64,000 nt of DNA from NCBI GenBank assembly GCA_025765595.1, contig JAIVFH010000053.1:124001-188000 (forward strand), given 5' to 3'. Numbering within the stretch: the stretch's first letter is position 1; every line of letters begins with the position of its first letter. The position numbers were made by a program, and so were the translations under genes. Below the pieces are notes generated by a model that had not been told where the DNA came from, did no database searches, and was given only the letters and a program-made list of their open reading frames with translations. This stretch comes from Obelidium mucronatum. Its lineage: Eukaryota; Chytridiomycota; Chytridiomycetes; Chytridiales; Chytriomycetaceae. This document shows, piece after piece, positions 665 to 20,685 of the stretch.

Positions 665-1873
665 CTATCGATCGTCGATCATTTGAAGAACCCTATCTCG
701 CCATTCTACAAGTTTGCTATTATCGGACTTGTTGTTCACACAACATAGCCACTGCAAAAGAGCACTCCACTCGTCAACATCAACGTCAATCACATCCGAC
801 TCAGAAACACATTTTACAACCCCGACACGAGCTAATCGATTACCCCAAATTCGTTGATCAAACATGAATGGTGCTACTACCTGCTTCAATCCAGCCATTG
901 AAACTTGCGAAATTGTCCCAAGCCCACCATGATTAATCGAACCCATGACCAGACCGGCAGCAAAGAAATCGGCGTACTCAACAGGGCCTTGGATAACGCA
1001 AATACGCGGACAAGGTACCTTTGATAGTGTCTTTCCGAGGAGTGAGGTGTTTGGAGCATTCACAACCCAAATAGCGTAACAATTGGCCTTCTCCAGAGCA
1101 GAATTCAATGCCGCCACCAGTTCTTGAACGGATTCCACTTCTGTAGTGAGAGACGGATATAAAGAATCCATAGAACCAAAGCCAATATGAACTATTGGTC
1201 GCGATAGGCAGCTTTCCACAAAACAAGCCAGGTGAGGGTAATTGGAGAGAGTAGCGCTTCGAGCATCCGCGGTAGAAAGAGAAGACGGCCGACAATAAGA
1301 TCCGACAACAGTTACGGTTTTGGGTATAGGCTTCTCAGTTAACTCTAATAACGCCGGAGAAATTGTGTACACAAGGAGGGGTATTCGTTCGGGAAGTGCA
1401 GGCAAGCCCAGGCGTTCACGAAATTCACCGTGGTCGGATAAACAAAGCCTCCATGCCCAGTGTTTTATAGTCTCCGCGTCTAAATTCGAATTCAGTTCTC
1501 CAAACGCCTTGTCGAAGCCAAGTGGTCGTGGAAAGTCCATCGCAAAAAAGGACCCAATGACGACACATTCCACGCCTAAAAGCTCAGCGATTGGAATGCC
1601 TTCCAGAGCAAAGAGGTTGCAAAAGATGGACTTTGGTATGTTGGTGGTCAGGTCCTTTGTCAGTTTCATCAGATCCGACAGTTCCGCATCTTTGTCACCC
1701 TTGTATGAAAGAGAGTTGACTGCAAATAACTTTGTATGAGTTCTATCGCCGAGCCGTCTGCAGAGATCAATGTGCGTAACGACAAGTACATCTTCATCCG
1801 GAAACTTCCTTTTCGTGTATTCAAGCAGCGGACAAAGATCGCCCCAAGTTCCAAAAACTACTACGACATACAT
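665..1873 (-). CDS. GT1-type UDP-glycosyltransferase
   Basis: Single-exon gene of 402 aa, started at the ATG (1871-1873) immediately before MYVVVVFGTWGD, which forms the N-terminal Rossmann strand and glycine turn of a GT-B enzyme. The C-terminal half carries the donor-binding signature with HGGLGT followed by APFMFDQ and a Trp-Gly-Asn, typical of GT1/GT28 enzymes such as sterol or antibiotic glycosyltransferases. It probably transfers a sugar from a nucleotide sugar to a lipid or small molecule in the cytosol. There is no signal peptide. Its start codon lies about 150 bp from the U2 snRNA start on the opposite strand, so the two share a short divergent promoter region. Confidence 0.8.
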   Translation of the reverse strand: MYVVVVFGTWGDLCPLLEYTKRKFPDEDVLVVTHIDLCRRLGDRTHTKLFAVNSLSYKGDKDAELSDLMKLTKDLTTNIPKSIFCNLFALEGIPIAELLGVECVVIGSFFAMDFPRPLGFDKAFGELNSNLDAETIKHWAWRLCLSDHGEFRERLGLPALPERIPLLVYTISPALLELTEKPIPKTVTVVGSYCRPSSLSTADARSATLSNYPHLACFVESCLSRPIVHIGFGSMDSLYPSLTTEVESVQELVAALNSALEKANCYAIWVVNAPNTSLLGKTLSKVPCPRICVIQGPVEYADFFAAGLVMGSINHGGLGTISQVSMAGLKQVVAPFMFDQRIWGNRLARVGVVKCVSESDVIDVDVDEWSALLQWLCCVNNKSDNSKLVEWRDRVLQMIDDR

Positions 1874-1920
1874 CTGATATCTGCGAGCTGATTTGCCAAC
1901 TAGTTGGTTTTGCCTCTCGA

Positions 1921-2021
1921 CCAATCAGAATCGTGCGCAGTCGAAAATCGTGTAACAGGCGGAAAAGCAATAGTTTCTCCGCAAACGTATAAAATGCAGG
2001 CCCACCCCCTTCTGTTGTTCC
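1921..2021 (+). promoter_or_regulatory. U2-A snRNA promoter (upstream element + TATA)
   Basis: The element TGCGCAGTCG lies at 1934-1943, followed by TGTAACAGGCGG, then a TATA box (TATAAAA, 1988-1994) about 33-39 nt before the U2 5' end. A CCAAT-like box begins at 1921. Upstream of the TATA box this promoter matches the U1/U5 intergenic promoter, not the promoter of the second U2 copy. Confidence 0.65.
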
Positions 2022-2210
2022 TTACAATCCTCTCAAGCCTATTGGCTAAGATCAAGTGTAGTATCTGTTCTATTTAGTGTGATAACTAAATCTGCGTACA
2101 TTGTACGTATCCATTATCACAAATATTTTTGAATCTCTCTTGGGACCCTGTGTGCTTGCACCAGACCCTCGAACTGGTGTCGCTGGCCTTACACTGCCGC
2201 CTGCTGACGC
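2021..2210 (+). ncRNA. U2: U2 spliceosomal snRNA, copy A
   Basis: The sequence contains the invariant U2 5' domain TTGGCTAAGATCAAGTGTAG, with the GUAGUA branch-point-recognition segment. It is followed by stem II-like sequence, an Sm site AATATTTTTG near 2120-2132 and 3' stem-loops including CACCAG/CTGGTG. The 5' end is placed at 2021-2027 from the TATA distance and alignment to known U2; the 3' end is approximate. The RNA recognises the intron branch point. It differs from copy B by one substitution that I see (C at 2112 here, T there). It opens array A: U2 forward, U5 reverse, U1 forward, U4 reverse. Confidence 0.93.
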
Positions 2211-2578
2211 CGAACCCCCTTCTCTCTCTTATAAATTTAAGTGATGAAACATTGAATGAATTGGAAAGCTACGTCTTATGCCAGCTTTTCCTCTGAAATG
2301 ATAAAACATTGCTCTGCTCCCTTGGATTTAGTGAATGCCACACTCTCTGCACCAGATAGCAACCCTCGTTGACAGAATTTATCAACCTTGGTTGGCAGAA
2401 TTTGTTTCTATTTGGTTGATGTGACCTGTTTGGATGGGGGGTACAGATACATAAAATGAAATCATTTAATATCTCTTGCTTTGACGGAGCACGCGTTTGC
2501 GTAAATCATTAAAATCATCTTATATCCAGATCAGACTTTTCCCAATTTGTTTCATCAATTTGAAGTTTTAAAGGAAAA

Positions 2579-2716
2579 CAAACTCAATCTCCGGAGAGAG
2601 AGTTGTTTGGGGGGTTGCAAAAATTGGCTACACTCTCTTTAGTGGCCCTACCACACGGCAATCTTTAGTAAAAGGCGAAAGATTGAAGCGTTGTTGCGAT
2701 AAAACCAGAGAGGACA
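2579..2716 (-). ncRNA. U5: U5 spliceosomal snRNA, copy A
   Basis: On the minus strand the conserved U5 loop I stem is present: ATCTTTCGCCTTTTACTAAA, with the invariant GCCUUUUAC loop that aligns exons. It is followed by an Sm site (CCAATTTTTG) and a 3' hairpin whose arms are CAAAC and GTTTG. Ends are estimated from the TATA box at 2747-2753 (minus strand) and the terminal hairpin. Compared with copy B the only change I see is one extra C in the run just after the Sm site. It is transcribed divergently from U1 copy A. Confidence 0.92.
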
Positions 2717-2876
2717 GGGATACAGCGGAAGGGCAGTGGCCTGCGTTTTATACTTTTCGCCTTCCCAATTTTTCCGCCTGTTACACGGTTTTCGACTGCG
2801 CACGATTCTGATTGGCCAGCACGCGACCTCAGCCGGAAAAGGTATAAATAGGCAGCGACTTGCTGGGCAGAAAAGC
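2717..2876. promoter_or_regulatory. bidirectional U5/U1 promoter, array A
   Basis: About 160 bp separate the divergent U5 and U1 start sites. One copy of the snRNA element (CGACTGCGCA, 2793-2802) sits between two TATA boxes: TATAAATA at 2843-2850 for U1 and the reverse-strand box at 2747-2753 for U5. TGTTACAC and a CCAAT box on the reverse strand flank it. The same layout is nearly identical in array B. Confidence 0.7.
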
Positions 2877-3040
2877 ATACTTACCTGAGTCGGAGATGCT
2901 GGTGATCATGAAGGCCAGCTCTCCATGGATGGGTTTGGCCATTGCACACCCGTGCTGGGCCCGTCTGTGCACAACTCCTTCGGGGGTTCGTGGGACTATA
3001 ATTTTTCTATCGGGAGTCTCGCTTTCGAGCAGACTCCTGG
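2877..3040 (+). ncRNA. U1: U1 spliceosomal snRNA, copy A
   Basis: The 5' end ATACTTACCTG matches the 5'-splice-site-pairing end of U1. Stem-loop I carries GATCATGAAG, the U1-70K-binding loop, and stem-loop II carries ATTGCACACC, close to the U1A-binding loop. The Sm site is ATAATTTTTC near 2997-3006, and a final GC-rich stem-loop closes the RNA at about 3040. The length, 164 nt, equals that of human U1. Its sequence is identical to copy B over the full 164 nt. The TATA box lies 34 nt upstream. It pairs with the 5' splice site in the spliceosome. Confidence 0.95.
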
Positions 3041-3364
3041 CCCCCTCCTCTCTCTCTCTAACCTTGAAATGGTGAAACTCTTACTCTGATGAATGATCAA
3101 ATCCTGGCGATAAGAAGATGTAGGAATAGTACTCTTTGCTGTCAGAAATGATGATATCGTGGCAATCACAGCTACATAATTCCTACGTGGCAAATGCCTT
3201 CACGCAAGAACAGTATTTCTGGATGTTGAATAAAAACACAAGGCTTGTTTCAGATATCTATTTCATCGCACTGGCATCGAAGTTTTCCCTAGTTCTTTCA
3301 GTGTGTATTTTTCCACGCGATGAATAAAACTTGTTTCATCATTTGTTTTTGGAAAAAAAGGGAG

Positions 3365-3520
3365 CCGCGCGCTGCGAGCAGCAGCGGGAAAAGAGGGGTT
3401 TTCAAAAATTCCCGTTGCCTCCGAAGAGACCACGGAGCTGTTAGGAAATAGTTTTCAATCAGCAAAAATGCAATCTCAGTCGGAACTTCACAGATGTGCA
3501 TATTACTTCCTGTGTAGGAT
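3365..3520 (-). ncRNA. U4: U4 spliceosomal snRNA, copy A
   Basis: The minus strand starts ATCCTACACAGG and contains the diagnostic block GAGATTGCATTTTTGCTGAT, continuing TTGAAAAC, which lines up with yeast U4 around stem I and the 15.5K/Snu13 k-turn. The Sm site GGAATTTTTGAAAA follows, then a 3' hairpin (CGCTGC/GCAGCG). The 5' end is placed 34 nt from the TATA box as in U1. The core is identical to copy B up to the Sm site; a C indel and several changes follow it. The 3' end is uncertain by about 30 nt. U4 chaperones U6 in the tri-snRNP. Confidence 0.88.
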
Positions 3521-3843
3521 AGCGTTCATGAACGGGCGGGGGCCGCCTATTTATAGGTTTTTTCATGCGCAGTCGATGTTACACAGCACTTTCCAACAGA
3601 ATTTAATTAAACTACACACAAACAATCGAAATGCATTAATGAAGTGTTTCTACCAGCTCTTTTTGGAATCACAACGATTTCTGACGATTCCCGATTTCAT
3701 CAATTAAATTTGTGAATAATGCTCTGCTATACGCATCAACTATATGAAATACACGCGCTCATCCTTAATTATGATGATCTACAGTGATCTGCCGTACAGC
3801 GATCACAATGATAGGCTGAATATAGTTGGAAGTGCCGAGTACA
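3521..3843. promoter_or_regulatory. divergent U4-A / CLASP intergenic region
   Basis: For U4 (minus strand), the palindromic TATA block CCTATTTATAGG lies at 3545-3556 and TGCGCAGTCG at 3566-3575, followed by ATGTTACAC. The remaining roughly 260 bp before the CLASP start codon show no RNA gene or ORF that I can support. Confidence 0.6.
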
Positions 3844-6800
3844 ATGGCTGGGCTCACTTTTAAATTGAACTACGCTTCATCTCGCTTGAAGGATTCGGCG
3901 TTCAGGAGATACAAGCTTTACCGTTTATACCAGGTATTATTGCGAGTGGTTGAAGTTGGTGAGAAGGGAGGGTATGATGAATAAATATCTGATTCTTTTT
4001 TTCCCACCAAAGTGGCCAGGCATCTCACTGTTTCACACTGACTCTGCCTTGTCGCCATATTCTTGTGTTTCGCGATTTTTATTTCAATGTAAGTACTTCA
4101 AGCATGCATATATGTTTAGCTGTCAATAATGCTGAATCGCATTGTCTTGTAGCCAAGCACAGCATACTATAGTACATTACCGCCTCAGAATCCCTTGAGT
4201 ACGAGTTCACATATTCGAATGCAAGCGCAGATAATTAAGGTGTGCAATGCGAGCGCTTCTATGTGTCGTCTAACGCTGTCTGTAGCATGATGTTGCTGGG
4301 GTTGACTCCGAAATCAATCTCGTCCTATCAGTGTTTGAGCAAAAAGAATCCGAAGATACGTGGATTCAAATGGATGACGCGATTTCAAAGTTTATCTGCG
4401 TCGTAAAGGGCTCAAGTCACGTCGCAGGATTTGTTGCATCCATCCGAAAACTCAAGCAACCAATTCTCGTTGCGGTTGGTGGAACTCCCCCAATCTCCCT
4501 CGTGTCGCTTAATTTTCCTATTATAAATAGCTTAATACTGAGAGAACGCGTCTTTCGAGAACCGCCATGCTTCTGTGTGAAGTGCTGGGACAATCTCTTG
4601 AAGAACGTTTTGACGGGCTTTCTGACTTTATTCTGCCCGCGTTAGTCCGGCTATGCACCAGAGCAAACAAGGTCATTGTAACTTCCGCCAATAATACATT
4701 GAAAGTTATTATCGATCACGCCGGTGTTCCGTCACTCCTTACCCTCCTCTCAGAGAATATTTGCGCACCGTCGCCTTCAAAATCATTGAGAATCTCTTCA
4801 GCCGAATGTGTGAACAGAATATTGGGTGCTAACTCCGTTAGTCGACTGGAGAAGTATGTTGAGGCCCTTGAAGCCGCCATCAAATGTGGAACAGTTGATT
4901 CCACGCCCGAAGTGAGAGGATTGATAAAAGCAACCTTTGAGCAGTACAAAACATTGTTTCCTTTGCGGCTTGATCGGTTAGTTGTCTTATGCTTTGTATT
5001 TTACGAATGATTGACAAAGATTCTCAACAGTTTTGTTTCATCATTACCCGAAGTGGCTGCAAAGTATCTCAAAGTAAATAAATCCAGCCAAGCTGCTACA
5101 GCGCCTGTCAATCGAAAGATTCCACCACGTCCTCGTGCACCAACAACAACGAGCAATTCTTCGTCAGGTCCATCACGACAGCCCGTCTCTCGCACGACTA
5201 CAATTACTCCAGATAGCTATTCTACTTCTCGTGGAATGGAGGAAGATGACTCTCGTTCGTTAGAGTCTGAAACGCCTTCGTTTGCTTTGGATTTGGATGA
5301 AGTTGATGCCGCGCAAAGTCAAAAGCCCCTTTCCAAGCCATTTCTAGAATTAAATAGTACTATTGATGCAGGCAAGATTTCTAGACCGCCATTGGCCGAG
5401 CACGGTACATCTTCAAGAAGAATGTTAATAGAACGACCTTCCAGTAAGATTAAAACTTTAAGATGCATATCTAAAAGACAATGAATTTGATTAATTAATG
5501 CAATTATTTGATAGGAGAAGCTGGACTCACAACTAATAGTAGCCATGAGCATATTGGAGGGGCACAACGAGTTCCGAGAGAACTCAGGAACAGCAGCAGC
5601 AGTTCTTCAATTAACAGCAACAATCCATCAACTGCGTCTAAACTGAAAGCTCTTCGTGTTCCTGCAACGGCTCCAGCTGTAGAACAGACAGCTAAATCAA
5701 CGGCAGCTACAGAACAGACAGCTAAATCAACGGCGGTAGATGACCAACTGGATTCGCTCATCTCCATCCGGCCAATGCCAACCAACCCTGTTCCAGTTTC
5801 CAAAGTTGAAAATAGGAACAAAAAAATCCCAATTCCAAAGCCTCCAGCTCGCCCCTCGTCTGTAGCGTCTAAAGTGGAGCTATTGGATCTTGTTCAGGCC
5901 TCCAACCGACTCAGAAGTCCGGAATGGACAACCCGACTGTCAGCATTGGAGAGTATTTCTAGCTATATTAAGGCTGCTTCAGTTGTCTCGGCTCCTTCAG
6001 CACTAATTCATGACGTGCGCTCAAAGGCTTCCAAGTATTGTGAGGGTTTATTAATGGGGTTATCCGACAATCAAACCAAATGTATTATGGCTGCAATATC
6101 TGGTCTCCAGTCATTGATTGAAAGTCCGTTCGCCATACCAGAGATGATTGATCTCTGTATACCGCGCATTGCCTCCATCGTCTTCTACCAACCTCAAAAA
6201 TCAAAATCACAAGTGTTGGAATTGGGACAAACTTTGCTTTCAACTGCAATAGAGTACTTTGGGGTGGAAGCCTGTGCACTGGCATGTGTTCATGCAATTC
6301 ACAATCCAGAGTTTGGAAAGCTGTTGAAGGTTCGAGCAGGAAGCGTTGCCATGCTGGCCGAATTGAGTGATGAAGAATGGACGACAATTCTCGCGAAGTC
6401 GACGAGTTCAGTCTTTTTCTTTTTTTTCGCCGTTTGCTTTGACAAGTTGCTAATAGTGATATAGACATGAAACTGTATATGACTCGGCTTTTGTCGCAAG
6501 CAACTGATTTGGATCACACTATTCAAAAGTCTCTTAAAAGTTGTCTGGCCTCAATGCAGTACCTTTCTCCTGATGGTTTTTGGAATGCCTGGGCATCTGC
6601 AAAACAGAGTGAAAAGAAAGTCGTTAACTCCCTGTTTCAAACGTCAGACATATCATTTTCCAAAAAAGAACTAGAATCTGCAAGAAAGGTATTATTTTAC
6701 ATAAGCGCTACATCCTTTTCCGTTATATTCATCTGGTATTATGCAGTCAAAACCTGGATTGACCTCGAACGCCTTCAAAGCGGCAACTCCTCAAAAGATA

Positions 6801-8332
6801 ACAAGGCTGTCAACGCCAATTGAAAATGCCGCATCGGAACAAAAGAGGCGACTATCTCGTGTGAGTATCCCATCTCCATCCTGCAATGATTTCGACGAAC
6901 GCACTGCCACTCCTTCATCTTCATCCAAGTTTATCTCTATCGACAAATCGTTGAGTACCGAGCTTGAAAACACCTCTGCATCTCGCGCGAGCTCAAGTGA
7001 AGGACTGTCCAGACTGGCTGTTTATGAGGACAGTGACATTGAAGAGTTGGGAGACGACGAAGAATCGTTGACCGCAGGAACAACGTTGACAAAAGATGCC
7101 AGCTCGAGCAGTGAAGCATCTTCAACGCCGATGAAGCCAAGAGATAGCAGCGACAGCTTATCATCCATTGGAAAGGTGTCCCCACAAAGGAGCCAGTCTG
7201 TGATTTCTGTGAGATCTGCAGCATTAGGATCCCGAATCCCTGCATCTACCAGCAAAATCCCTATGGCCAGTAATCTATTCACGTCCCCCACGAGATCAGC
7301 AACTGTTTCTTCCAAAACGATGATGTATACTACCGGGAAGATTGGAAAATATATGCCGTTGGAAGCCAGGACGGATCTACTTCGTCCATCTGTCAAAGCA
7401 GCGCCCAAAGAAACGCCTATCTTGAGCTCCGATGAAATTAAATTGGAGCCTGAACCGTTGATGGCAGAGAAGAAGATGGAGTCTTCTCTTATGACTGCAG
7501 TTGAGCCTGAAGTCAGCCTTCAAATTGCAATGTCTGGAGATCTTGAGGGACTATGGCTTTTCGCCCGAGAAAAAAGAAACCTTGATGCCTTGGAACTTCA
7601 TTTGGACACTTTAATTGATATTGTTCTGAAGAAAGCAAAAGAGGAGCCTCATTTGGTAAATCATTGATTGTTTTCTGCCGTGTTTGACACTATCCTACCC
7701 CTTATAGTCTGTTGCTCAAGTGAAATGCGGCATCTTTATATTGTTAATACTGATTGAGCATTTTGCTGTCGACGGCCGTGCCGCAGACGTTTTGCTTGCG
7801 GCTTTGCTGTTCGAATCCAAGCCTATCGTATGTTAACAATTTGGAATCCAGAGCAATGGAGTAACTGCTTTTTGTTGTCACATAGGATGATTCAGACAAT
7901 CGCTTGGAACTGGAGTATGAAGTGGACTCAATGTTGTCAACTTTCAGACAAACATTTGAAGCCAAGACATTGCTTTTCTGTGTACTCCGAGTTTTGGAAA
8001 CTACTTCTATCGTAAGCACTCAGTTATGCTTTGAGTTGATGACCTTTGCCCTTACGGAAGCAAAGAGAATTGAGGGGGATGGGGATGATAATGTATTGTT
8101 TGGAACAGATGAGGAACTTGAGGTTGATTTTTGGAATCGCATTATTGGTTTTGTTGTGGTGGGGTTGGATTCAAAAGTTGCGGCGTCTCGCAAATCTGCT
8201 TTTGATTGCGCTGTTGCAATGTGTCTTCGTAAAGGAGAAATGCTTGCGACACAATTATTTATGGAGGTTGGGAAAACAAGTGGACGAGGACGTGAAATTG
8301 TTGTGCGTGGAATGGTTGAAAGATATTTATAA
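3844..8332 (+). CDS. CLASP/Stu1-like TOG-domain microtubule regulator
   Basis: The best-supported exons are 4286-4474, 4531-4976, 5031-5443, 5515-6405, 6465-6688, 6747-7655, 7708-7827 and 7886-8332. Three short in-frame upstream exons (3844-3933, 4020-4088, 4153-4239) are tentative. The first domain has the CLASP pattern FEQKESEDTW, then KQPILVA and LLCEVLGQSL, as in a TOG/CLASP_N repeat. A second HEAT-rich block follows near residues 430-560. A long Ser/Thr/Pro-rich linker then leads to a C-terminal helical CLASP_C-like domain. Such proteins bind tubulin and microtubule plus ends to promote rescue and spindle stability. Total about 1,050 aa, within the family range. Confidence 0.75.
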
Positions 8333-8390
8333 CTTACGGATTGAATTTTTCAAAATATATTGTTATTATTATCCATATAATGCATTCTAT

Positions 8391-11300
8391 TCAGCAATCG
8401 TAACAATGCATCACATTATTTCCTTCATTCAAGGGATCATTCTCTTGAATTAATGACTTTCCAACATCCAGCGCTTCCTCATATATATATTCAACCTGCG
8501 ACAAATCTCGAACGCTTCCCAAATCAATTGACGCCAAGCATTCAACATACGCGGCATTATTCAATACTGAGGACAAAGAAAGAACTTTAGAAATCACATT
8601 CACGCTTTCCGCTCGAACAACGCGAGATGAGTCTTTGGTCTGTTTTGAAAGTATCGTTAATACCAAAGTTCAAAGAGTTGAATTTTTTTTTTTTTTCAGA
8701 AACCAACCATTTCACTGAGCAATTCTTGGCACTTGACTTGGAAAATCCAATTCATCAAATGTGTATCGACTAATGCCAACCTTTCCAATACACTAGAAAG
8801 GAAAGATAACGTATGCAAACGCACTTCCCAATTTGGATCATCCAAGAGTAGCCGTTTCAAATTGTGTTGACTTGAGAAAAAAAAAAATTCCAAGAAGAAA
8901 AAGAAGAAGAATAACAATTAATAAGCCATAAAGAAATAAAAAAAATAAAAAATAAAAAAATCGCGTTGAAGGAATCTCTCTAACCTCAGTTTAAACCCAT
9001 GGCTGCCACCATCATCATCTTCATCTGCCAATATCAATTTCATATCAAAGGAAGGTATCCCCGTCAGAGAATTCAGCAAGTCCAACGCCCCGATTCGAAC
9101 CAAAGCTTCTGAATCATGGAGTGAATTGCAAAGACAGGATGAAACCAAATCAACCAAAGTAGTATCCGAACTGGCTGCATCCCACCCGTCAGTATTGTTT
9201 AGTATACCCTATAGCGGAGAATCAGAAAAAAAACCAAGGGTTTATCAGATTTACAAATCGTTCGAAGCTGATCAAAAAAAAAATTTTTTTTTTTTAACTT
9301 GGAAAGCATGTAGTGCTTTAAACCGAACGTTCGGCTCCGCATCATTACACCGATTCAACAATATTTTCACGAATTGAAGTCCATACTTTGAGGAGGAGTG
9401 GTTTGATTCCCGAGAAGCCACAAACAGAGTCTTGATAAAGTCGATTGTAGCGTCCCGAATATCCCATTCCAAATCGTATAACCGCGTTGTGATGGATTCC
9501 GTGATCGAATGCCCAAGTTTGGTGTCTGGTGGTAATAGTAGCATCAAATTGTGGAAAGTATCAAACTTGAACATTTTTGGAATCAGTTGGAAAGTCCGTT
9601 CAAGAACAGAGTGTGGCTGGTTGGCGTCTTTTAATAAATCAGCAATTACTTGTGTAATCTATTGCCGTAAGTTATTGAAAAAAAAAATTGGGGCGTGCGA
9701 TTAATATTCCAACAGTTGTTTGTATGGCGAATACTCACAGTTGATACAATGTCCATCGCCATATTGGTTGGAGCTGCGTTTACAAAAACGATTAAATTGT
9801 CCAATGCACCGTGATGAGCCCTGGAGTATAGTTGAAATGACGGAGACTGTAAGGGTATAGTGACAGTTGAGAGCAAGGTGACAGTGTCGTTGGGTTTCAC
9901 AAAAGAAAATCCACCAGCCCTTATTAACTCTCCAAGGGCTTCGTTGATCTCAGTTACTAGATTAGCAGTGATTCTTTTGACTTGCCGAGTTTGGGTAAGG
10001 GATGCATTTGGCGGCAGCGCACACGACCGTCGTGTCTGGAATAAAAAGAGAGAGTAAACAGATAATAATTTCAACAAGATCATAACAAAAATTACCAAAT
10101 CCAAAAACAAGTCCGGAATAATGACCCCAGCCTGACCAAGAATAGAAGAGTCCTCAAACCCTCCTCGTTGTTTCAACTGATTCAAGAATGAAACAGTCCA
10201 TAATAAATCATTTCCGTTTCTCTGAATTTGTGCACCAGATTCCTCAAGAGCCATAAAGGCAGTCCCAATCATACACAACAACAAACAAAAGTACCACTCA
10301 GTGACCTGTCCGTTCTCGATCCCTCCTTCCAAAGAGTCCATTGAAAACTTCTGACAAATCACATTTCCAATAATCCGAAGCAAAGGAGTTATTTTGGACA
10401 ATTCGGGGTTGGGATGTCGCAGCAACGGCAACAAGATACAATCCAAGATGCAAGACACGTCGTCCACGGTAGAATGAAATAAAGGGTCAATATTATTTCG
10501 CGTCTTGAAGTAGAAGTAACAAGAGGCATTGTGAAACTTTGATTTGAACAGGCAATTGAGAATATCAATAACTCTGGATTGAACGATTCTATCTGATTCA
10601 GAAATATAGGACTCAACCATGACCGGAAGCTATTGATAAATAGAAATCACGTTGAGCATTCTTTCTTCGGCGGCATGATGTACTCTCACCAATCTCGAAT
10701 CCATCAAAAACTGTTTTGTCCCAGGGTCCTCAAGGCTACAGAGTTCCCAAATCAATGTGAAAACCAGAACCTTTTTCTCCAAAGAATTTTGTGGAATTTT
10801 CATCATCGAAAAGTCGATACTGCTGTCCTGTACAAACGGTCTCCAGTCTTGACCTTTCAAACTGGCTGTCAAAATTTCCATCAAGTTCCCGTGGATCAGA
10901 AGGGATGCAAGAAGTTCGTGATGCGAGAGCTCGAGAAAGTTTTTTATGGCTATATCGTCGGTTTTTGGGGGGCGATTATTTTTGGTGGAAAGCTGAATTG
11001 GCTTGGGCCGGGCAATGAGGACTTTCAACACGTTGGTCAATGCTGCTGCCACCTTCAGTTCCACACAAAAATTAAATGAAAAAAGAAAAGTTATTTTTTA
11101 TCTTTACTTACATAGGTACTTTCATCAGCAAATGCGCGCCAAAAGATGCGTCCAATCAACTGAGATTCCACAACCCTGCAACAAACAATCAAAAAATCTT
11201 AGCAACAGAGGCATCAGTATCAATAAATTTACCATTTAGCAGCCCTTGTTGATTGACAGAATGATGCGAGCATTGTTAAACAGCCAAAAATCAGAGGAGA

Positions 11301-11775
11301 AGATGTGTCAAACGAAGTCAATAGGTCAAGGACTGAAGATAAAACACGAGCATGATCAGTTAATAGAGATTGAAACGCCGAGTCGTCACACGATTCAACA
11401 AGAAATCCTAATATATTTGTCAGGTCAATTGCTTATCCCCTCGTTTTACATTCAGATGTAAAATAAGACATGACCCAACCAAGAAAGCGAAACGCAAGAG
11501 ACAGCAGCCGCACATCTGGACTACTGAGACAATCTTCAATCACTTGAAACGATCGGAATTCGGAGATGAGGCGGTTACTTCCAAGTTCTGAGGTTTGGGC
11601 GAGCAAGTAAGACAGGACTTTTTCATGACGCGATGGATCTGCAATTTCCTGCAAAATACTGTTGAAGATCAAGAATAGCAATAGTGTTGGTAAGTACTGG
11701 GCTCATGGCTGGAAGACTTTCTAGGACTGTCCGGAGTTGGTGGTGATCATCTGCTTGGTTGCTTAACATTTGCAT
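8391..11775 (-). CDS. BRAT1-like HEAT-repeat protein
   Basis: Eleven exons that keep phase give 891 aa: 11698-11775, 11480-11648, 11233-11407, 11112-11175, 10690-11052, 10096-10629, 9739-10035, 9299-9658, 8985-9208, 8708-8870 and 8391-8639. Helical HEAT repeats run throughout. The C-terminal third has DLEWDIRDATIDF, DSEALVRIGALDLL and DPNWEVRLHTLSFL in the order expected of BRAT1, the animal partner of Integrator subunits INTS9/INTS11. The identification is from remembered similarity and is moderate. The start codon is 44 bp after the CSL4 stop. The intron 10036-10095 is 60 nt and stop-free, so retention would stay in frame. Three donors in this region are non-standard GTTGGG or GTTGGT. Confidence 0.6.
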
Positions 11776-11819
11776 CAATAAAATAACAACGTTGAAATGA
11801 ATAGGAGGGAACGTTTTTA

Positions 11820-12735
11820 TTACTCGGTACTCGATTGGCCAATCGCGACTGGTTTCGCACATTTTCTGTTTTCAACCGTCTTGCCACTGATGTTAGATAG
11901 AATCAATCAGATAAAAATAGTATTTACCTTTGTTTTGGGGCACACCATTTCGTCCCATGAAATTGGAATCATCGTGTGGCCTGTGGAAATATGAAAATCA
12001 TGAGGGAATGTCAAGAGCAAATAAGATATGAGAGAAACTCACCTGCGGGGCTTGTCGCCAGAATCACACCCAACTCATTCTTGGCAGTTGACAAATAATA
12101 CGCACGAGCATCTCCCAACGAAATCACTTCAGCTCTGGACCCCGTCAATACAAATGTCAGAAAACAGGAAACTCTTTTTGCAGATTCATTCCAATTCACC
12201 TAACAATATCACCCGGCCGGAAACTGTTGTAAATCTGAACCTTGTCTCTTTCCGTAGCACGAACATCCTGGACACGAATGATGCCCTGAAAGTTGTCGGT
12301 GCATGGTTGATCCCCAACTACCATGATGCTGAGAGTCGCCATCTGTGGAGTTACCCGGATAACTTTTCCCGTGACAATTGAGCCTACATCGGGAATGGCC
12401 GTTTTCATGCTCTTTTTGCTGTTTGGAATGACCTGAATCACGTCGAGCTGCAAAAAGGGGATGGGATCGAAGCAGACAATCAGACGACAAAAACACACAA
12501 GCGGCGAGTATTTCAGTGTTTAATTACATCTCCAGCAGTAGGACTCTTTGTTATGGCGACAGTTCCCACGATGGATGCAAAGATGTGGTCGCCGACTTCG
12601 ACAGTTCCGTTAGAAGCTGGATTGAGCGAGAGTGGTAAGCCAATCAACCACGCCATCAAGCTAAGCGGACAAGCAGCGCATACCAAAGTACTCGCCGGCC
12701 AGGCCGAGGCGTTCGCCGGGCGTGACGACAGGCAT
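11820..12735 (-). CDS. CSL4: exosome cap subunit Csl4 (EXOSC1)
   Basis: Six exons (12684-12735, 12528-12616, 12200-12447, 12043-12134, 11928-11980, 11820-11879) give 197 aa, the same size as human EXOSC1. The N-terminal domain begins MPVVTPGERLGLAGEY and continues with VEVGDHIFASIVG. The central S1 domain has PDVGSIVTGKVIRVTPQMA. The C-terminal zinc-ribbon-like end reads SWDEMVCPKTK, then ENRKCAKP. It caps the RNA exosome ring for nuclear and cytoplasmic RNA decay. The final acceptor (after GTGGCAAG) was chosen because it alone restores the family C-terminus. It starts 63 bp from the divergent GTPase gene. Confidence 0.9.
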
Positions 12736-12798
12736 TTACTTTTATTTACTTTTATTTTATTTTGTGTAGAAACAAAAACAAAAAAACAAAGAAACCAA
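12736..12798. promoter_or_regulatory. 63-bp divergent promoter CSL4 / GTPase
   Basis: Only 63 bp separate the two divergent start codons. The tract is A/T-rich (ACTTTTATTT repeats, ACAAAAACAAAAAAACAAAG), with no TATA box typical of the snRNA genes. Both 5' UTRs must be very short. Confidence 0.5.
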
Positions 12799-14330
12799 AT
12801 GCCCTCGCACGCAGCGGCGCAGCGCATCCTCGACGCCGTGTGCGACGAGTACGCTTCGCGGCTCGGACGGCTCGCGCGCGCGCACGGCAGCGCAGCGGTG
12901 GCGCCGCGCCGCAAGACAGTTGTTGTGCTGCTGGGCAACCACTCGGCGGGCAAGTCGTCGTTCGTCAACTGGTACGCCGGCGCGCGCGTGCAGAAGACGT
13001 CCGTGGCGATCGAGACTACCGCCTTCACGCTCGTCACCGCAGGCAAGGCGCGCGAGACGCTCGCCGGCCCCGCCACGCTGCAGCTGTTTCCCGAACTGAA
13101 GCACGTCGCCGCCCTGAAGGGCGTGCTGCCGTGCCTCGCCACGGAGATCGTGCCGTCCGCCGCCCGCAACTTTCCGCTGATCACCTTCATCGACACGCCC
13201 GGCCTGGTCGACGGCGGCGTCAAGTATCCGTACGACCCCGAAGCTGTGCTGATCAAGCTGGCCACGGAAGCGGACCTGGTGCGTGCAGACTAGATGCCGG
13301 TTTATAAAAGTATTTTATTCACAGCTGTTCCAAAGGTCTTTTCTTTTTTTGATCCCATTGGCCAAGCCCTCTGCTCGCGTACAATGAATGTAGTCGAAGC
13401 TATTTGTGAATCTCAGGGCCACAAGATTTTCTTTTATTTATCGAAAGCGGACACGGTAATGGACAAATTGAACCTACAGTATGGGGCCCCATCATTCAAA
13501 ACTAATCGAGAATTGATCGGGTTATTCAGATCCCTGACGAATCAGATCGTCAAAAAGTTTTGATTCAAATCGCCCAAAGTCTGACGCACCGAATTCAAGA
13601 TCGGCAGTTTTCTCTAGACATTCCCCCAATCTTTATTCCCACAGAAGAAAACTCCAATGTGCCTGTTCGAAATCACATGGATGGTTTACTTGCAATCATT
13701 GATTCAACAATCGCTCAAGGGGTGCAAAAGGCCTTGGGATCGCTCAAAAAGGACTGCGCGACTATTGCTTTGGCAATCACGGAAAAACTCAAGGCAGACG
13801 ATGCAGCGAGAAGATTCAATAAGCGAGACATTGGAAGGGTGATTTAAACACTGGGAGATGCAAAAAAAAAAAGAAGTGCTTACCAGGAGGTCTTTTCAGG
13901 GATTCCTTCTGCTCTCTGCCGCAACAACCCCGATATTTGTCTTGATATCCGTCGGGATATACCGAATCTTGAATGGACTAGTGGAATCAAATGGCCCAGA
14001 AGTTCTTGGACTAGGCGGTGAAGTGATCACAAGTGTCCTTCAAATACTGGATAAACTTGTTCGGGAAATGGCATGGAAGCATATTGGATATGTTTTGATT
14101 GCGTCGGTTTTTGCTTTCCTTGGGTGGTGGTTTTTCATCAAAAAGAGGAAAACCCTTACAACTGAGGAAAGGGAGGAAATGCTGAAGGATTTAGAACTGG
14201 TACAAGTTACTTTGCCTGCGAGACATGAAGGTGGGTGTATTGCTTTTTTCTTTTTTACATTTGGTTCTATTATTCACTGTTGTTTTCACGATCAGAGTTG
14301 TACGCAGAGTACTTTGAAGCACACGTTTGA
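12799..14330 (+). CDS. EHD/dynamin-like membrane GTPase with C-terminal TM hairpin
   Basis: Five exons (12799-13278, 13336-13455, 13530-13838, 13900-14230, 14296-14330) give 424 aa. The P-loop is GNHSAGKSS, switch motif G3 is DTPG and G4 is SKAD. The block FFDPIGQALCSRT is typical of the EHD/sarcalumenin-type GTPase domain. After the GTPase fold and a helical stretch (IPDESDRQKVLIQIAQSL) come two predicted transmembrane helices at about residues 305-330 and 360-380, and a short charged tail. There is no EH domain. By analogy it may tubulate or fuse a membrane. The first 450 bases are strikingly GC-rich compared with the rest. Confidence 0.75.
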
Positions 14331-14394
14331 CACAGATGACAAACAATAGGATTTATTATATCCTTGACGAAAAAAATAAAGAACTAGATAATAA

Positions 14395-15262
14395 TCAATG
14401 CTTTGAAAGACTGGAATTGTGTCCTTCCTTGTTTCTTGCAATTTCAATCGCAAAGAACTGGATTCGAGTAACTGTTTTTGAAGGGAAAAAAAACATCAAT
14501 AACCAGGAGGAGAAGACAAATTTTGTATACCAAAAAAGGCGTTATCTGGTCCATAATCTTCTGCAGATCGGGTTCTAAGCAACGTTCCGTAGTTGAAATC
14601 TTGCACTTTTGCTTCAAATCTGGTGGGGGGGGGGGGGGGGGGGGGTTTTTTTTTTTTTTTTTTGAAATGTGTCAATCCACACGGTGGTTTTTTGCATTTC
14701 AAGCTCATACTTCTTGATCCACTCTCTCCACTTTTCTTTGGCAGCATCAGTCTTGAAATCTTCCAGCTCCTTCAGTTCCGCAACATTGATTTCAGGGAAA
14801 TTCGCCTTAAAGTCTGCATAGATTTCGTCATCGACCCTGATATCACGAATTCCAAGAGCGGTTTAAGCAACAAAAAAAAAAAAAAATTGCAGCATTGAAA
14901 GCAGAAGGGAATGGCGGCTAACTTTGTCAGACGGAGCTTGCTGGCATCAAGCTTGCTAATGAGGTTGAAGTACGTTTCAGCATGATGGAGAGCCTTCACA
15001 GACCAGATCTTTTCGACATCTGAAATTGTAATCCGTCGAGAATGTGAGAACAAAATCTGTGCGATGGTGTCAAAGGATCGCCTCCATCGTCATCACCTTC
15101 ATGCTTTTTTTTTTTTTGAATGGTTAGCCATATAACTCAAATTCGATACCCCCCCACACACACGTAGATTCAAGGCAACAGATTACGAAAGAAAAGAGAG
15201 TTTGTTCCCCTTACGTTTTCGGCGGTCTCAGCGCTGAAGGGTTGCACTTTCTTGACTTCCAT
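14395..15262 (-). CDS. PBDC1: PBDC1-family protein
   Basis: Five exons (15215-15262, 14923-15056, 14711-14836, 14531-14619, 14395-14471) give 157 aa. The core reads IWSVKALHHAETYFNLIS, then VDDEIYADF, KEKWREWIKK, VQDFNYGTLLR and RIQFFAIEIARNKEG, matching human PBDC1/yeast YPL225W step by step. That family has recently been linked to co-translational folding of eEF1A; this is family knowledge, not visible here. The intron 14620-14710 contains the G21/T18 homopolymer (C21 next to the 3' splice site on the sense strand). The N-terminal intron (15057-15214) is the least certain joint. Confidence 0.85.
14625..14663. repeat. G21/T18 homopolymer junction
   Basis: An uninterrupted run of 21 G (14625-14645) is directly followed by 18 T (14646-14663). 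On the sense strand of PBDC1 it is A18-C21 just before the ACCAG acceptor, acting as a C-only polypyrimidine tract. Length may be unreliable in the assembly. Confidence 0.9.
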
Positions 15263-15330
15263 CGTTCAAAGCAAGGGAAAAAAAAAATTTGTAGCCAAAA
15301 AAAAAAAAAAAAAACACATAACACAATTTA

Positions 15331-18300
15331 TTAATCAGATACATCTGCTTTATCATCGTCGTCACCAAGGACCACTCTTCGCCTCTTGCCACTACCGCCT
15401 TCTCCGTCCTTGACAAAGTTTTTTGCAGTCTTGTTTCGCATTGCTTCTACACTGGATTCATCTTCAGCCCATTCCATGACCAAGTGGCGTCCATACAAGT
15501 GGGTAGACCCCAAAGTACTGAATGCTGCTTTCGCTTCTTGTTTTGTGAGGAAATCAACGAATCCAAAACCACGATGGGTTCCATCAAACTTTGTTGGGAG
15601 ACGTACAGATTTAACTTGACCAAACGTACTGAAGTTAGGTGAAAACTGAGTTAGGCAAATAAATGACAAAATAAAAAAACAAGACTACTCAACGAGAAAA
15701 GCTGCTTGATGTCTTTTTTAGTAGCCTGGAATGGAATATTTCGAACAATCAGTTTTGTGCCAGTCACTTTGACTTCATCTTCTTCATCCATATTCCTTTT
15801 GGCAGCAGATGACGCTTTGGCAGCAGTATTTCCTTTTCCAGTCGCGTTTGAAAACTTGAGCTCTAGCTTGTGGCCGTCCAACTCAACGCCTTGCAGTGCT
15901 TTGACGGCTTTGATGGCGTCTTCTTTCCTATCAAACTCCAAGAAACCGAATCCCATGCTTAACACTGCTCCACCGCCTTTCTTGGTGTCTGGCTTTGTAG
16001 CAATGCGAACCGATCGAAGACCACCGACTGGGGTAAACTTTTTCCGCAAGTTATCTTCTGTGGTGGCGAAACTGAGGTTCTTCACAAAGAGAGTTGCCAC
16101 GGGCATGGCATCTGGATCGTCCATAGCAGACGTGGCAGTGGTCGGCGTTGAAGTGGCCGCCATAGATTTCTCCAAAACTTCCTTGTTGGACAATTTGGAA
16201 GTTTTGGTTACGGCTTTGGATACGCGAGAGTCGATATCTTGAACCTCATCATCGCGGTTGGCTTCCGTCATTGTGGCATCGACGGGGTCTCCTTTGGATA
16301 GCTTTTCCAGCTTCCGTTTCTCCTCAGCCTCTTTATCAAACGCAGTTTTGAAAGCCCCGACTGGAGCAAACTCCAAGAATAGAGGTAACGTCTTGAACTT
16401 TGTATATGCCAATCTCCGAAAAGCGCTTTTGCATTCATTTGGTTCCAGAAATTCGACCATGGCAATGGTTCCACTTGGGGGAACAACAATTCGCCCCAAC
16501 GACCCAAATTTCCCAAACAAGACTTCTATTTCCTCTACGCTGGTGTGTGCAGGTATGTTTTTGGCTAAAAGTATCGTGGAAGATCGGCTTTTGTGGCGAG
16601 TGAAAGCATTCAAGTCAATGCCCTCTTCTTCCAGATATGCCTTTGTTTCGTTGACAATGTCGGTTTCCGCAAGAGCTAGACGAACAGCCATATTCTCTGA
16701 AGATGGATCCAAAATGTCGCTCTTTTTGACGTTGAGCTTTCGAGCCATGGCTTCAGCAACTGCGTCACTCTGTTTAGAAAGGTTTTAGCTAAAGTTAAGG
16801 CAAAGAATGTTATCAAATTTTGACCTACATTTATGAACAAACTGTTCCAGCTATATTCGTTATTTGCTGTTTTCTTTTTCTTTAGCTCCAGCTTTTTCTT
16901 GTAGCTCGCATCGGCTCCCAACAGTTTTTCATCGTCCTCAAACGTCTTTTTCTTTTCTTGTCCGGGTAGAATATCCAGAATTCGACCTTGGAAGATTTGG
17001 CCATTCAATGTTGTGTATGCCTTCACGGCATGCTCGGGCAAAAGATACATGACGAACGCATACCCCCGAGGTTTCTTGGTGTCCTTGTCAATGGACATGT
17101 GAATTTCAGAAAGAGGACCGTATTTTCCGAACAGATCTTTCAAATCATCGGTGGTGCATGTAAACGCCAAGTTTTTCACAAATAATCGACCGGTATCGGC
17201 AATAATTTCGGCTGGCGGTTCTTCTTCGTTGGCTTCTTTTAATTTTGCACGTTCCGGGAGATCGGATTCCATTTCATCGACGGGTTCTGCTGTTTCGTCA
17301 AACATGTCCTTGATTTGTTGGGCAACTTTTGATTTGTTTGATGGCGTCTTTCTTGAAGGTCCATCCGCCTGCTCTTCCTCGTCCTCTTCATCATCTTCTT
17401 CTTGTTGTCCATCTTTTGGTTCCTCTTCTGTTCCGTCTTCCTCGTCAAGCTCATCACCTTTATCACTACTTGCATCTTCGTCCCCATCAAGTGTTTCTCC
17501 ACCAAAAACATCATCATTTCCATCAGTTAACTTGGCTCGCAAACGAGATCGTAAGTATTCCATGTCCGAGACGGTTGAATCATGGGCAATTGCATCTGGC
17601 TCTGGTTCATCATTGGTGGCCGAATCACCATTGTTGTCATCACCATCATCATCCGTCTTTAGCTTCAAATCTTGATACAACTCATCATCTTCTTCGCCTT
17701 CTGTTCCAGCAGCTGCAGCGGCAGCTTTAGGATCCCAAACAAACTCTTTGCCCAAATCATCGTTTGCCCAAGTTCGCCCTTTTGCGGCACCGCGAGGCCT
17801 CATAACATCGAGAAACTCTTGGAACTTTGCATCTGTTTCCACGGCGTTCCGAACTTCAGCCAATACACCCTTTGGCGTTGATTTGGATTCGACAGGCTTT
17901 TTTTTGAGTTTCTTTTTTTCATCCTTTTTCCACAAATCTTCTTCGATTGCGGCTTCTTCAGCTTTTTTCGCATCTTCTTGTTTCTTCAAGGCGCGGGCGT
18001 TGGCGGATGATCCTTCCGTGTGTTTTGACCATGGTCTGGGAATCGCAACGTCGCCCACCTATAATATGAAAACGAAATCAAGATCAGGTTTTAATCCCGA
18101 AATAAAGCCGATGTTTGCTTTTTTAAAACAACGTACAGGTTTCGCAAACACAACTTCTATTCTAGAAGTATCAATAAACGTCCGATTAAAGTACGTCAAT
18201 GCGTCTCTTGCGTCCTTTTCGTTCTTGAAACCAATGAAACCGAATCGCCGCGAGTTTCCTTCTCTGTTTTTGTTTTCCTTTTCTTGTCAGTGAATTGATT

Positions 18301-18483
18301 CATTTTGGTGAAGGGAGGGGGGGGAGGGGGTTAAAAACTCAACTTGTCCTTGGCGAGTTTGATATCAGTAACTGGAGCTCGTTGGGCAAAGTGTTCTCGG
18401 AGTCGATCAAGAGTCAGATGCTTGGGCAGATTGCGAACCATCAAGCGTGATGTTGGTGCTTCATCTGGCATTTCGTTGTTCAT
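15331..18483 (-). CDS. MRD1: Mrd1/RBM19 pre-rRNA processing factor
   Basis: Five exons (18344-18483, 18137-18263, 16829-18058, 15694-16769, 15331-15628) give 956 aa. Five RRMs are visible, each with RNP2/RNP1 motifs: [19 protein letters not shown] with [26 protein letters not shown] with GFGFLEF, and [10 protein letters not shown] with GFGFVDF. A long Asp/Glu-rich region lies between RRM1 and RRM2, and the block [12 protein letters not shown] between RRM2 and RRM3 is typical of the family. Five rather than six RRMs fits fungal Mrd1. It binds U3 and 35S pre-rRNA for small-subunit assembly in the nucleolus. Confidence 0.93.
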
Positions 18484-18994
18484 TTGGTAAAAAAAATAAA
18501 AAATAAAAAAAAAATAAAGAAAGAAAGAAGAAACCAACTTTATTATCGCCCACTTCCTCTGACAAAAGCAGAGATCTCTAATAAATTAATGCTTTCAATG
18601 ATTCTCGTCCTCCTATCATCTTGAATCTTCTGGAGAGGGTAATTCAAACAAACAATGTACTTAGTGAATTGCACCTGTATTCCTGAAAGAACTCGCGTAT
18701 CCAGCCGCGAATTCCGAAAAAAAATCGCATACTCCACTGAAACATGATCATTTTTCAAATACTTGCACAGATTTATTCAATGAATCCAGCAAAATATGTT
18801 GGGCAGAATACTCGTAGTTCTAATTCAGAAAAGAAATCGACCCTTCCTCAATGCGTCTCAGTTTATTACAGCTCGATGTTTCTATCCCGATTAATTGCTT
18901 GTCGCTCGATGTTTGTTGTTGTGGAAAGGCTGTGTAACATCGACTGCGCATGAAAAAACCTATAAATAGGCGGCCCCGCCCTTCGCTGATCGGT
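18484..18994. other. intergenic region MRD1 / U4-B with U4 promoter
   Basis: This 511-bp gap carries the U4-B promoter at its right end: TGTAACATCGACTGCGCA at 18933-18950 and TATAAATAGG at 18961-18970. The rest is A/T-rich with A-tracts at the MRD1 5' side; I see no gene. Homology with arm A fades left of about 18925. Confidence 0.6.
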
Positions 18995-19150
18995 ATCCTA
19001 CACAGGAAGTAATATGCACATCTGTGAAGTTCCGACTGAGATTGCATTTTTGCTGATTGAAAACTATTTCCTAACAGCTCCGTGGTCTCTTCGGAGGCAA
19101 CGGGAATTTTTGAAAACCCTCTTTTCCCGCTGCTGCTTGCAGCGTGCGGC
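18995..19150 (+). ncRNA. U4: U4 spliceosomal snRNA, copy B
   Basis: Reads identically to copy A from ATCCTACACAGG through the stem I block and the Sm site (GGAATTTTTGAAAA, 19103-19116). A terminal hairpin with arms CGCTGC (19128-19133) and GCAGCG (19139-19144) follows, whose loop ends in T here and C in copy A. The TATA box at 18961 is 34 nt upstream of the inferred start. The 3' end (19144-19150) is approximate. Confidence 0.88.
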
Positions 19151-19490
19151 TCTCTTTTTCCCAAAAGACAAATGATGAAACAAAATATAACTTTATTCTT
19201 TCCGCGGCTATCATCATTGCGTGGTTAAATACACACTGAAAGAACTAGGGGAAACTTCAAAGCCAGAACTGTGAAATAAACAGATGTCCTTTTTTTATTC
19301 AATGCATCCGGAGAACCAGTTTTTGTAAGGAACTAGCCATGCAGGGTGTGAGCTGTGATTGCCACGATACGATCATTTCTGACAGCATCAACTATCGCCT
19401 CCAAAATGAGAGCAAAAGTATCTACACAGAATTTTATAAATCTGAGCGAGAGTTTCATCAATTTAATGTTACAGAGAGAGAGAGGAGGGG

Positions 19491-19654
19491 CCAGGAGTCT
19501 GCTCGAAAGCGAGACTCCCGATAGAAAAATTATAGTCCCACGAACCCCCGAAGGAGTTGTGCACAGACGGGCCCAGCACGGGTGTGCAATGGCCAAACCC
19601 ATCCATGGAGAGCTGGCCTTCATGATCACCAGCATCTCCGACTCAGGTAAGTAT
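19491..19654 (-). ncRNA. U1: U1 spliceosomal snRNA, copy B
   Basis: The reverse strand starts ATACTTACCTGAGTC at 19654 and is identical to copy A for all 164 nt, including the 70K loop, the U1A-like loop, the Sm site and the final stem-loop. It is divergent from U5 copy B. Confidence 0.95.
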
Positions 19655-19814
19655 GCTTTTCTGCACTGCAAGTCGCTGCCTATTTATACCTTTTCCGGTT
19701 GAGGTCGCGTGCTGGCCAATCAGAATCGTGCGCAGTCGAAAACCGTGTAACAGGCGGAAAAATTGGGAAGGCGAAAAGTATAAAACGCAGGCCGCTGCCC
19801 TTTCTGTCTAACCC
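19655..19814. promoter_or_regulatory. bidirectional U1/U5 promoter, array B
   Basis: The single element TGCGCAGTCG at 19729-19738 lies between the U1 TATA box (reverse strand, near 19681-19688) and the U5 TATA box (19779-19785). It is nearly base-for-base the same as in array A. Confidence 0.7.
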
Positions 19815-19952
19815 TGTCCTCTCTGGTTTTATCGCAACAACGCTTCAATCTTTCGCCTTTTACTAAAGATTGCCGTGTGGTAGGGCCACTAAAGAGAGTG
19901 TAGCCAATTTTTGCAACCCCCAAACAACTCTCTCTCCGGAGATTGAGTTTGT
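19815..19952 (+). ncRNA. U5: U5 spliceosomal snRNA, copy B
   Basis: Carries the U5 loop I stem with GCCTTTTAC, the Sm site CCAATTTTTGC and the 3' hairpin CAAAC...GTTTG. It has one C fewer than copy A in the C run after the Sm site. The 5' end is placed from the TATA box at 19779; the precise start is uncertain by a few bases. Confidence 0.92.
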
Positions 19953-20290
19953 TTTCTTTTAAAACTTCAAATTGATGAAACAAATTGGGGAAAGTCTGAT
20001 TTGGTGAAAAGACAGATTTTAATGATTAAACGCGTGCTCCTTCAAAGCAAATGATCTACATCGTTCATTTTATGTATCTGTACCCACCTACAAACAGGTC
20101 ACGTCAATCAAATACAAACAAATTCTGCCAACCAAAGTTGCTATCTGGAGCAGAGAGTGTGACAGGGCATTCACTAAATCCAAGGGAGCAGAGCCATGTT
20201 GTATCATTTCAGAGGAAAAGTTGGCATAAGACATCGCTTTCCAATTCTTTCAATGTTTCATCACTTAAATTTAAAAGAGAGAAGGGGGTT

Positions 20291-20476
20291 CGGCGTCAGC
20301 AGGCGGCAGTGTAAGGCCAGCGACACCAGTTCGAGGGTCTGGTGCAAGCACACAGGGTCCCAAGAGAGATTCAAAAATATTTGTGATAATAGATACGTAC
20401 AATGTACGCAGATTTAGTTATCACACTAAATAGAACAGATACTACACTTGATCTTAGCCAATAGGCTTGAGAGGAT
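20291..20476 (-). ncRNA. U2: U2 spliceosomal snRNA, copy B
   Basis: The reverse complement reads ATCCTCTCAAGCCTATTGGC and continues with the branch-point-recognition segment, Sm site and 3' stems as in copy A, with a single substitution noticed. It has its own TATA box (TATAAAG) but an upstream region different from that of U2-A, resembling the U4 promoter type. Confidence 0.92.
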
Positions 20477-20685
20477 TGTAAGGAACAACGAAAGGGGGTG
20501 GGCCTGCGCTTTATACCTTTTTTGCGTGCGCAGTCGAGGTTACACCAAATGTCCAAGAAAATTTGTATTAAAATTGTATGAGCAACCATGGTGCTTTCCC
20601 TGAAGGGAATCAAGAATAATTCATTACTGGGTTGTTTTGGAGAAAGGTATTAAAATTTAAAGAAATTATTTGATTGGTTCACAGT
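20477..20685. promoter_or_regulatory. U2-B promoter and spacer to mtIF2
   Basis: The TATA box lies about 40 nt upstream of the U2-B start on the minus strand, and the snRNA element TGCGCAGTCG at 20527-20536 is followed by AGGTTACACC. On the U2 strand the order TGTAACC-TCGACTGCGCA-A-tract-TATA is that of the U4 promoters. No gene is seen in the remainder. Confidence 0.55.

Follow-up and report, generated by a model that had tools for sequence, protein, structure and literature searches.

Splicing requires balanced amounts of the U1, U2, U4 and U5 RNAs, and to our knowledge little is understood of how cells balance the output of separate small nuclear RNA (snRNA) genes. A 64-kb stretch of the Obelidium mucronatum genome (contig JAIVFH010000053.1, positions 124,001 to 188,000; the window) raises the question of whether such a balance could be laid down in the arrangement of the genes themselves, as it carries two compact arrays of U1, U2, U4 and U5 snRNA genes in mirror image. 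The best joint explanation, which the sequence makes probable, is that the arrays are working snRNA cassettes, that RNA polymerase II would transcribe them from promoters consisting of an upstream element (USE) and a TATA box with the help of a SNAPc-like factor, that one USE would drive the two genes of a head-to-head pair, and that U6 stands apart.

The whole window was scanned with cmscan at the Rfam 15 gathering cut-offs. Eight matches and no more were obtained, all eight above the curated cut-off and each spanning its model end to end. Array 1 (2025-3520) has the order U2>, <U5, U1>, <U4, and array 2 (18995-20478) has the mirror-image order U4>, <U1, U5>, <U2.

2025..2219, plus strand: U2 snRNA, array 1 (RF00004, 137.8 bits)
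2587..2713, minus strand: U5 snRNA, array 1 (RF00020, 75.3 bits; the 3' end placed by Rfam is approximate)
2877..3039, plus strand: U1 snRNA, array 1 (RF00003, 101.0 bits; 5' end ATACTTACCTG)
3391..3520, minus strand: U4 snRNA, array 1 (RF00015, 78.2 bits)
18995..19124, plus strand: U4 snRNA, array 2 (RF00015, 78.7 bits)
19492..19654, minus strand: U1 snRNA, array 2 (RF00003, 101.0 bits)
19818..19944, plus strand: U5 snRNA, array 2 (RF00020, 75.4 bits; 3' end approximate)
20284..20478, minus strand: U2 snRNA, array 2 (RF00004, 138.4 bits)

The original prediction, made from the letters of the window, had named these four RNAs in this order and orientation, had placed four of the five major snRNAs within about 1.5 kb and had described a mirror-image repeat of the set; the covariance models bear out all of this, with no snRNA score under threshold. 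The absence of U6 from the window is also confirmed by the Rfam scan, and the predicted range of 1921 to 20545 matches the outer promoter elements (a 46-bp copy at 1921-1966 and a USE at 20527-20545). The description as an inverted pair is right about the mirror repetition but not about the natural unit, because the contig has three cassettes, and U1-U5 and U2-U5 pairs also stand head-to-head at dispersed loci. An extensive U4-U6 duplex is predicted between the array-1 U4 and one genomic U6 (-45.5 kcal/mol, calculated with no shuffled control), and it includes the U4 5' end with U6 CCTGTGTAAGGAT.

The searched assembly comprises 48.3 Mb in 694 contigs, and its match counts are lower bounds: at least 10 U1, at least 14 U5, at least 4 U4 and at least 15 U2 matches exceed the cut-off, four of the U2 matches being divergent (53-65 bits). 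The third four-gene array, which has diverged, lies outside the window about 67 kb further on (C53:211276-212766). Thirteen of the 14 U5 genes stand head-to-head with U1 (seven) or U2 (six) at a distance of 129-169 bp; the spacers measure 163-169 bp in U1-U5 pairs and 129-135 bp in U2-U5 pairs, related copies not being independent. Chance clustering is excluded because 10 U1, 11 U2, 4 U4 and 14 U5 genes, placed at random in 48.3 Mb 5000 times over, never formed a four-type cluster within 1.6 kb; a mean of 0.006 U5 genes fell within 500 bp of U1 or U2.

The upstream regions of the U1, U2, U4 and U5 genes have a common element, GTGTAAC-N1-2-CGACTGCGCA, which a TATA-like box follows. The exact USE occurs at 17 sites in 48.3 Mb, 15 of them at snRNA genes, and its second half combined with TATAAA occurs at 18 sites, 14 of them at snRNA genes, where the two are 10-12 bases apart; the control gave no site in either search, the exact USE being read backwards for this purpose. 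A permissive TATA-like pattern is present at -32 to -41 in all 39 U1, U2, U4 and U5 genes, and a short GAAAA-like stretch, noted by eye, often precedes the TATA boxes. The same USE pattern with other spacing was discarded, as it gave six matches, none at snRNA matches, and one in the reversed control. This shared promoter element, which is absent from the original prediction, unites the three cassettes and the dispersed head-to-head pairs. At the outer genes of the two window arrays it is found as follows.

1934..1956, minus strand: USE of U2, array 1 (within the 46-bp inverted near-copy 1921-1966)
3566..3584, minus strand: USE of U4, array 1 (shared element)
18932..18950, plus strand: USE of U4, array 2 (shared element)
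20527..20545, minus strand: USE of U2, array 2 (GTGTAACCTCGACTGCGCA)

In the array-1 U2 promoter, positions 1921-1966 repeat the U5/U1 element (2770-2815) in inverted form over 46 bp at 98% identity, and we infer that this near-copy arose as if by gene conversion. A divergent open reading frame (665-1924, minus strand, no Pfam match) has a possible ATG about 50-60 bp away from the copy, and the array-1 U2 promoter may serve an mRNA gene too.

How does one element relate to two genes that start back to back? In both window arrays U5 and U1 face each other across 163 bp.

2714..2876 (163 bp), no strand: divergent U5/U1 promoter, array 1, with one detectable USE between TATA boxes at 2746 (minus) and 2843 (plus)
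2780..2802, plus strand: USE between U5 and U1, array 1, GTTACAC-N6-CGACTGCGCA, first half inverted compared with solo genes
19655..19817 (163 bp), no strand: divergent U1/U5 promoter, array 2, with TATA boxes at 19682 (minus) and 19779 (plus)
19729..19751, minus strand: USE between U1 and U5, array 2

Genome-wide, the element faces U2 in the U5-U2 spacers and has its first half inverted in the U5-U1 spacers. A scoring matrix was built from 12 USE sites, each belonging to a solo gene, to an outer gene of an array or to the U2 member of a pair, and 16 promoters of 130 bases each (15 of U1 or U5 and that of the array-1 U2) were scored with it; they cover 10 of the 13 divergent spacers, those of C646, C53c and C83 being left out. 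Each of the 16 has one USE site above the 95% shuffle level, and none has a second one. Because U5 is head-to-head with U1 or U2 at 13 of 14 loci and each scored spacer has one detectable element, one USE between two divergent starts suggests a bidirectional snRNA promoter. The sole U5 gene without a detected partner (C5:685447-685559, L067) still has the inverted USE in front of it, as would be seen after loss of a U2 from the opposite side.

Downstream of the genes a second motif recurs. Of 43 genes (the 39 major ones and four divergent U2), 33 have TG[AG]TGAAAC in the 100 nt that follow them, whereas 1000 shuffles gave 0.025 on average and never more than 1; the 43 regions are not independent cases because many are related by duplication. 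In the window, exact TGATGAAAC follows seven of the eight genes and TGGTGAAAC the eighth, and five more TGATGAAAC copies occur elsewhere in the 64 kb. The motif resembles a 3' box, from whose animal form it presumably differs.

2242..2250, plus strand: 3'-box-like TGATGAAAC after U2, array 1
2549..2557, minus strand: 3'-box-like TGATGAAAC after U5, array 1
3070..3078, plus strand: 3'-box-like variant TGGTGAAAC after U1, array 1
3333..3341, minus strand: 3'-box-like TGATGAAAC after U4, array 1
19173..19181, plus strand: 3'-box-like TGATGAAAC after U4, array 2
19452..19460, minus strand: 3'-box-like TGATGAAAC after U1, array 2
19973..19981, plus strand: 3'-box-like TGATGAAAC after U5, array 2
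20255..20263, minus strand: 3'-box-like TGATGAAAC after U2, array 2

The seven U5 genes not paired with U1 (C4, C28, C83, C119, C162, C631 and C5) have no TGATGAAAC within 100 nt downstream and share another stretch there, CGCAGGCT-TTTATGCAGTAAACAG, which points to two possible U5 classes that differ in their 3' flanks. The four divergent U2-like genes (L032-L035 on C600, C19, C320 and C29; 53-65 bits) keep the GTAGTA branch-site-binding stretch and differ in the 3' half; each is about 400-760 bases from a tRNA match and has TGGTGAAAC downstream, and no USE core was found within 220 bases upstream of any of the four.

In the proposed mechanism, a SNAPc-like complex bound at the USE and TBP bound at the TATA box would recruit RNA polymerase II, which would make capped U1, U2, U4 and U5, and the downstream motif would direct 3'-end formation in the manner of the animal 3' box. 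In the head-to-head pairs of U5 with U1 or U2 (129-169 bp apart), the single USE between two TATA boxes would drive both genes, and the pair would therefore be co-expressed. A search for the SNAPC3 family (PF12251) gave two SNAPC3-like matches that exceed the cut-off, at 101.7 and 89.3 bits. PF04082 (Fungal_trans), a domain that we take to be typical of fungi, gave 30 exon-wise matches, some of which are pieces or near-duplicates of one gene; they indicate a fungus. Its lineage is probably early-diverging. The COPI-alpha protein encoded in the window matches seven PDB sequences, five at 226-230 bits and two at 136 bits, and says little about the lineage. The four U6 matches of the genome (two on C32, one each on C105 and C147) share another upstream element, CCTAGAATCGG (4/4, by eye), and end in T runs; this separate placement, with an element of its own and T-run ends, is what would be expected for polymerase III.

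Several points weigh against this mechanism. The USE sites of the U1/U5 spacers score low (6.7-13.5 bits versus 16.1-37.8 bits for the 12 matrix sites) because the first half of the element is inverted, and a USE with an inverted half may work differently. The test of the U2-U5 spacers is partly circular, as four of the five scored ones (C4, C28, C119 and C162) supplied matrix sites, and a weak second USE site may be present in the scored spacers. Ten of the 43 genes have no downstream motif, namely all seven U5 genes that lack a U1 partner and three other genes, which have one-base variants. Both SNAPC3 matches hold stop codons in the unspliced frame, the search ignoring introns; the stops may mark introns, and the two matches count as SNAPC3-like sequence, not as intact genes. 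The main alternative to the shared USE is that these are real genes with promoters of their own, the spacer USE serving one gene only (U2 in U2-U5 pairs) and the partner depending on its TATA box together with further elements, for example a CCAAT motif or an A-rich stretch before TATA. This would agree with the six U2-U5 pairs, in which the USE has the canonical distance and orientation for U2 and, as seen from U5, is inverted and distant (-81 to -86), and with the GAAAA-like stretches before TATA boxes. However, the scored promoters have no second USE above shuffles, the lone U5 on C5 retains the inverted element with no partner gene detected, and the spacer lengths are narrow, though related copies are not independent. 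We consider a USE devoted to one gene of each pair rather unlikely, and prefer one USE for both.

The near-identity of the array genes could also mean that the second window array is an assembly or haplotype duplicate, and near-identical copies over 2-3 kb do exist among the dispersed loci (C83/C162, 98.8%; C39/C646, 99.4%). The latter may be haplotigs, and the independent snRNA loci could therefore be fewer. Alignment of both window arrays with the third array of the same contig gave a different picture for the cassettes. The genes are 99-100% identical between arrays, and each of the three comparisons gives 94.5% identity for the divergent U5-U1 spacer, but identity drops to 77-91%, with gaps, in the convergent spacers (91% and 77% between the two window arrays, with 53 and 55 gap columns), and the flanks past the outer promoters are at background (35-42%; about 40% for the two window arrays). 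Because the spacers diverge by 9% and 23% within one contig and the flanks are unrelated while the genes are almost the same, and with a diverged third copy about 67 kb on, assembly duplication of the window arrays is ruled out as far as such evidence goes, and we give it very little chance; this is also how the doubt raised in the original prediction about the second array is answered. Still slighter is the chance that the copies are dead or mobile, being snRNA pseudogenes spread by retroposition. The copies are indeed many and dispersed, but the genes are full-length with promoters and downstream motifs, and their near-perfect identity persists while the spacers diverge. Utopia retrotransposons, which target U2 genes (excerpts of PMC4640811), were also considered. 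Conservation between arrays falls mainly on the genes and their promoters. Homology between arrays 2 and 3 extends from the U4 USE to just beyond the U2 USE, and that between arrays 1 and 2 ends just before the U2 TATA box. Segmental duplication, with its limits near the outer promoters, would have multiplied the cassettes, whose genes would be kept alike by selection and probably gene conversion.

The promoter also precedes a further candidate RNA. A sequence of about 400 nt lies in five copies behind a USE and a TATA box (C78:95007, C197:17512, C50:80815, C50:135929 and C443:16458; L059, L063, L075, L076 and L086). The exact-USE search gives the copies on C78 and C197, and the second half with TATAAA gives those on C50 (two), C443 and C78. 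The sequence has AATTTTTC, which resembles an Sm site, perhaps a terminal hairpin, and TGATGAAAC, after which conservation across the five copies falls, and we regard it as a candidate Sm-class RNA. The Rfam scan took in four of the five copies: two have no match at E<=1, and the two others have, at E<=10, only three weak matches, all at one locus and outside the RNA. None of 113 predicted pairs is changed on both sides, so that covariation gives no proof of structure. Telomerase RNA was considered as its identity and is not supported, as the RNA has AACCCCAACCC, one base off a template for the TTAGGG repeat. TTAGGG is likely the telomere repeat of this genome, with 29 overlapping matches on seven contigs (C7, C14, C21, C34, C49, C56 and C61); at the four inspected loci, which come from C7 and C14, the sequence breaks off within the repeat, as it would where a contig ends.

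So narrowly defined a promoter element offers a route to new RNAs of the same class. There is also a wider proposal, which we advance tentatively and rate at a little under an even chance. The USE would define a dedicated polymerase II snRNA regulon, marking almost only U1, U2, U4, U5 and one Sm-type RNA of about 400 nt; a single USE placed between divergent genes would tie U5 output to that of U1 or U2 and so fix spliceosome stoichiometry in the layout of the DNA, with the four-gene cassette as its fullest form. A four-snRNA cassette in which one promoter element apparently serves two genes would be a simple layout for testing co-regulation at a 20-bp site.

Linkage of different snRNA genes is known from other eukaryotes. 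According to excerpts of PMC545797, Arabidopsis has seven U1-U4 clusters (180-300 nt apart) and one U2-U5 cluster (under 200 nt apart), and its snRNA promoters consist of a USE, RTCCACATCG, and a TATA box. The same partner combinations at short range, the common USE and TATA promoter and the downstream signal make the layout described here plant-like. In contrast, the Arabidopsis clusters have two genes and a USE of another sequence, and those excerpts describe neither a four-gene cassette nor a shared divergent promoter. In the portions of PMC3464664 considered, U2-U5 linkage is reported in fish, U1-U2-U5 linkage in Soleidae, and U1-U2, U2-U5 and U4-U5 linkages in Drosophila. Fish resemble the present case in linking several snRNA types with a promoter element and a 3' box per gene, and differ in that U2-U5 lies in a tandem array with a separate proximal sequence element (PSE) and 3' box for each gene, the named clusters having no U4. 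Excerpts of PMC2784804 give U3-U5 linkages in Euglena, likewise multicopy and compact with spacers diverging among copies; these are convergent only, divergent ones having been sought there without success, and involve U3 instead of U1, U2 or U4. In coral, U1-U2 are linked with 5S ribosomal DNA. An upstream element common to polymerase II snRNA genes, together with a 3' box, recalls the human SNAPc/PSE system as excerpted from PMC3499247, from which the present genes differ by a TATA-like motif in 39 of 39.

The likeness to plants would also fit an ancient eukaryotic linkage shared with them (U1-U4, U2-U5) and not specific to this lineage, given the same partners and the same promoter plan in Arabidopsis. 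The two USE sequences differ, however, and further combinations occur in Drosophila and fish, which makes this origin improbable in our judgement. No report of a four-type snRNA cassette or of a bidirectional snRNA promoter was found among the literature matches listed, most subscription journals lying outside their coverage, and the excerpts of PMC7789003, PMC12787238 and PMC6053224 hold nothing on snRNA clusters. The original prediction, which knew of no established model genome with such co-clustering, stands in that no four-type cassette is among these matches, but it is too strong as worded, as linkages of two and three types are known. Against that background, all four types in one cassette are a new variant, and the comparison suggests that at least one fungus uses a plant-like promoter of USE and TATA box, perhaps together with a factor of the SNAPc type.

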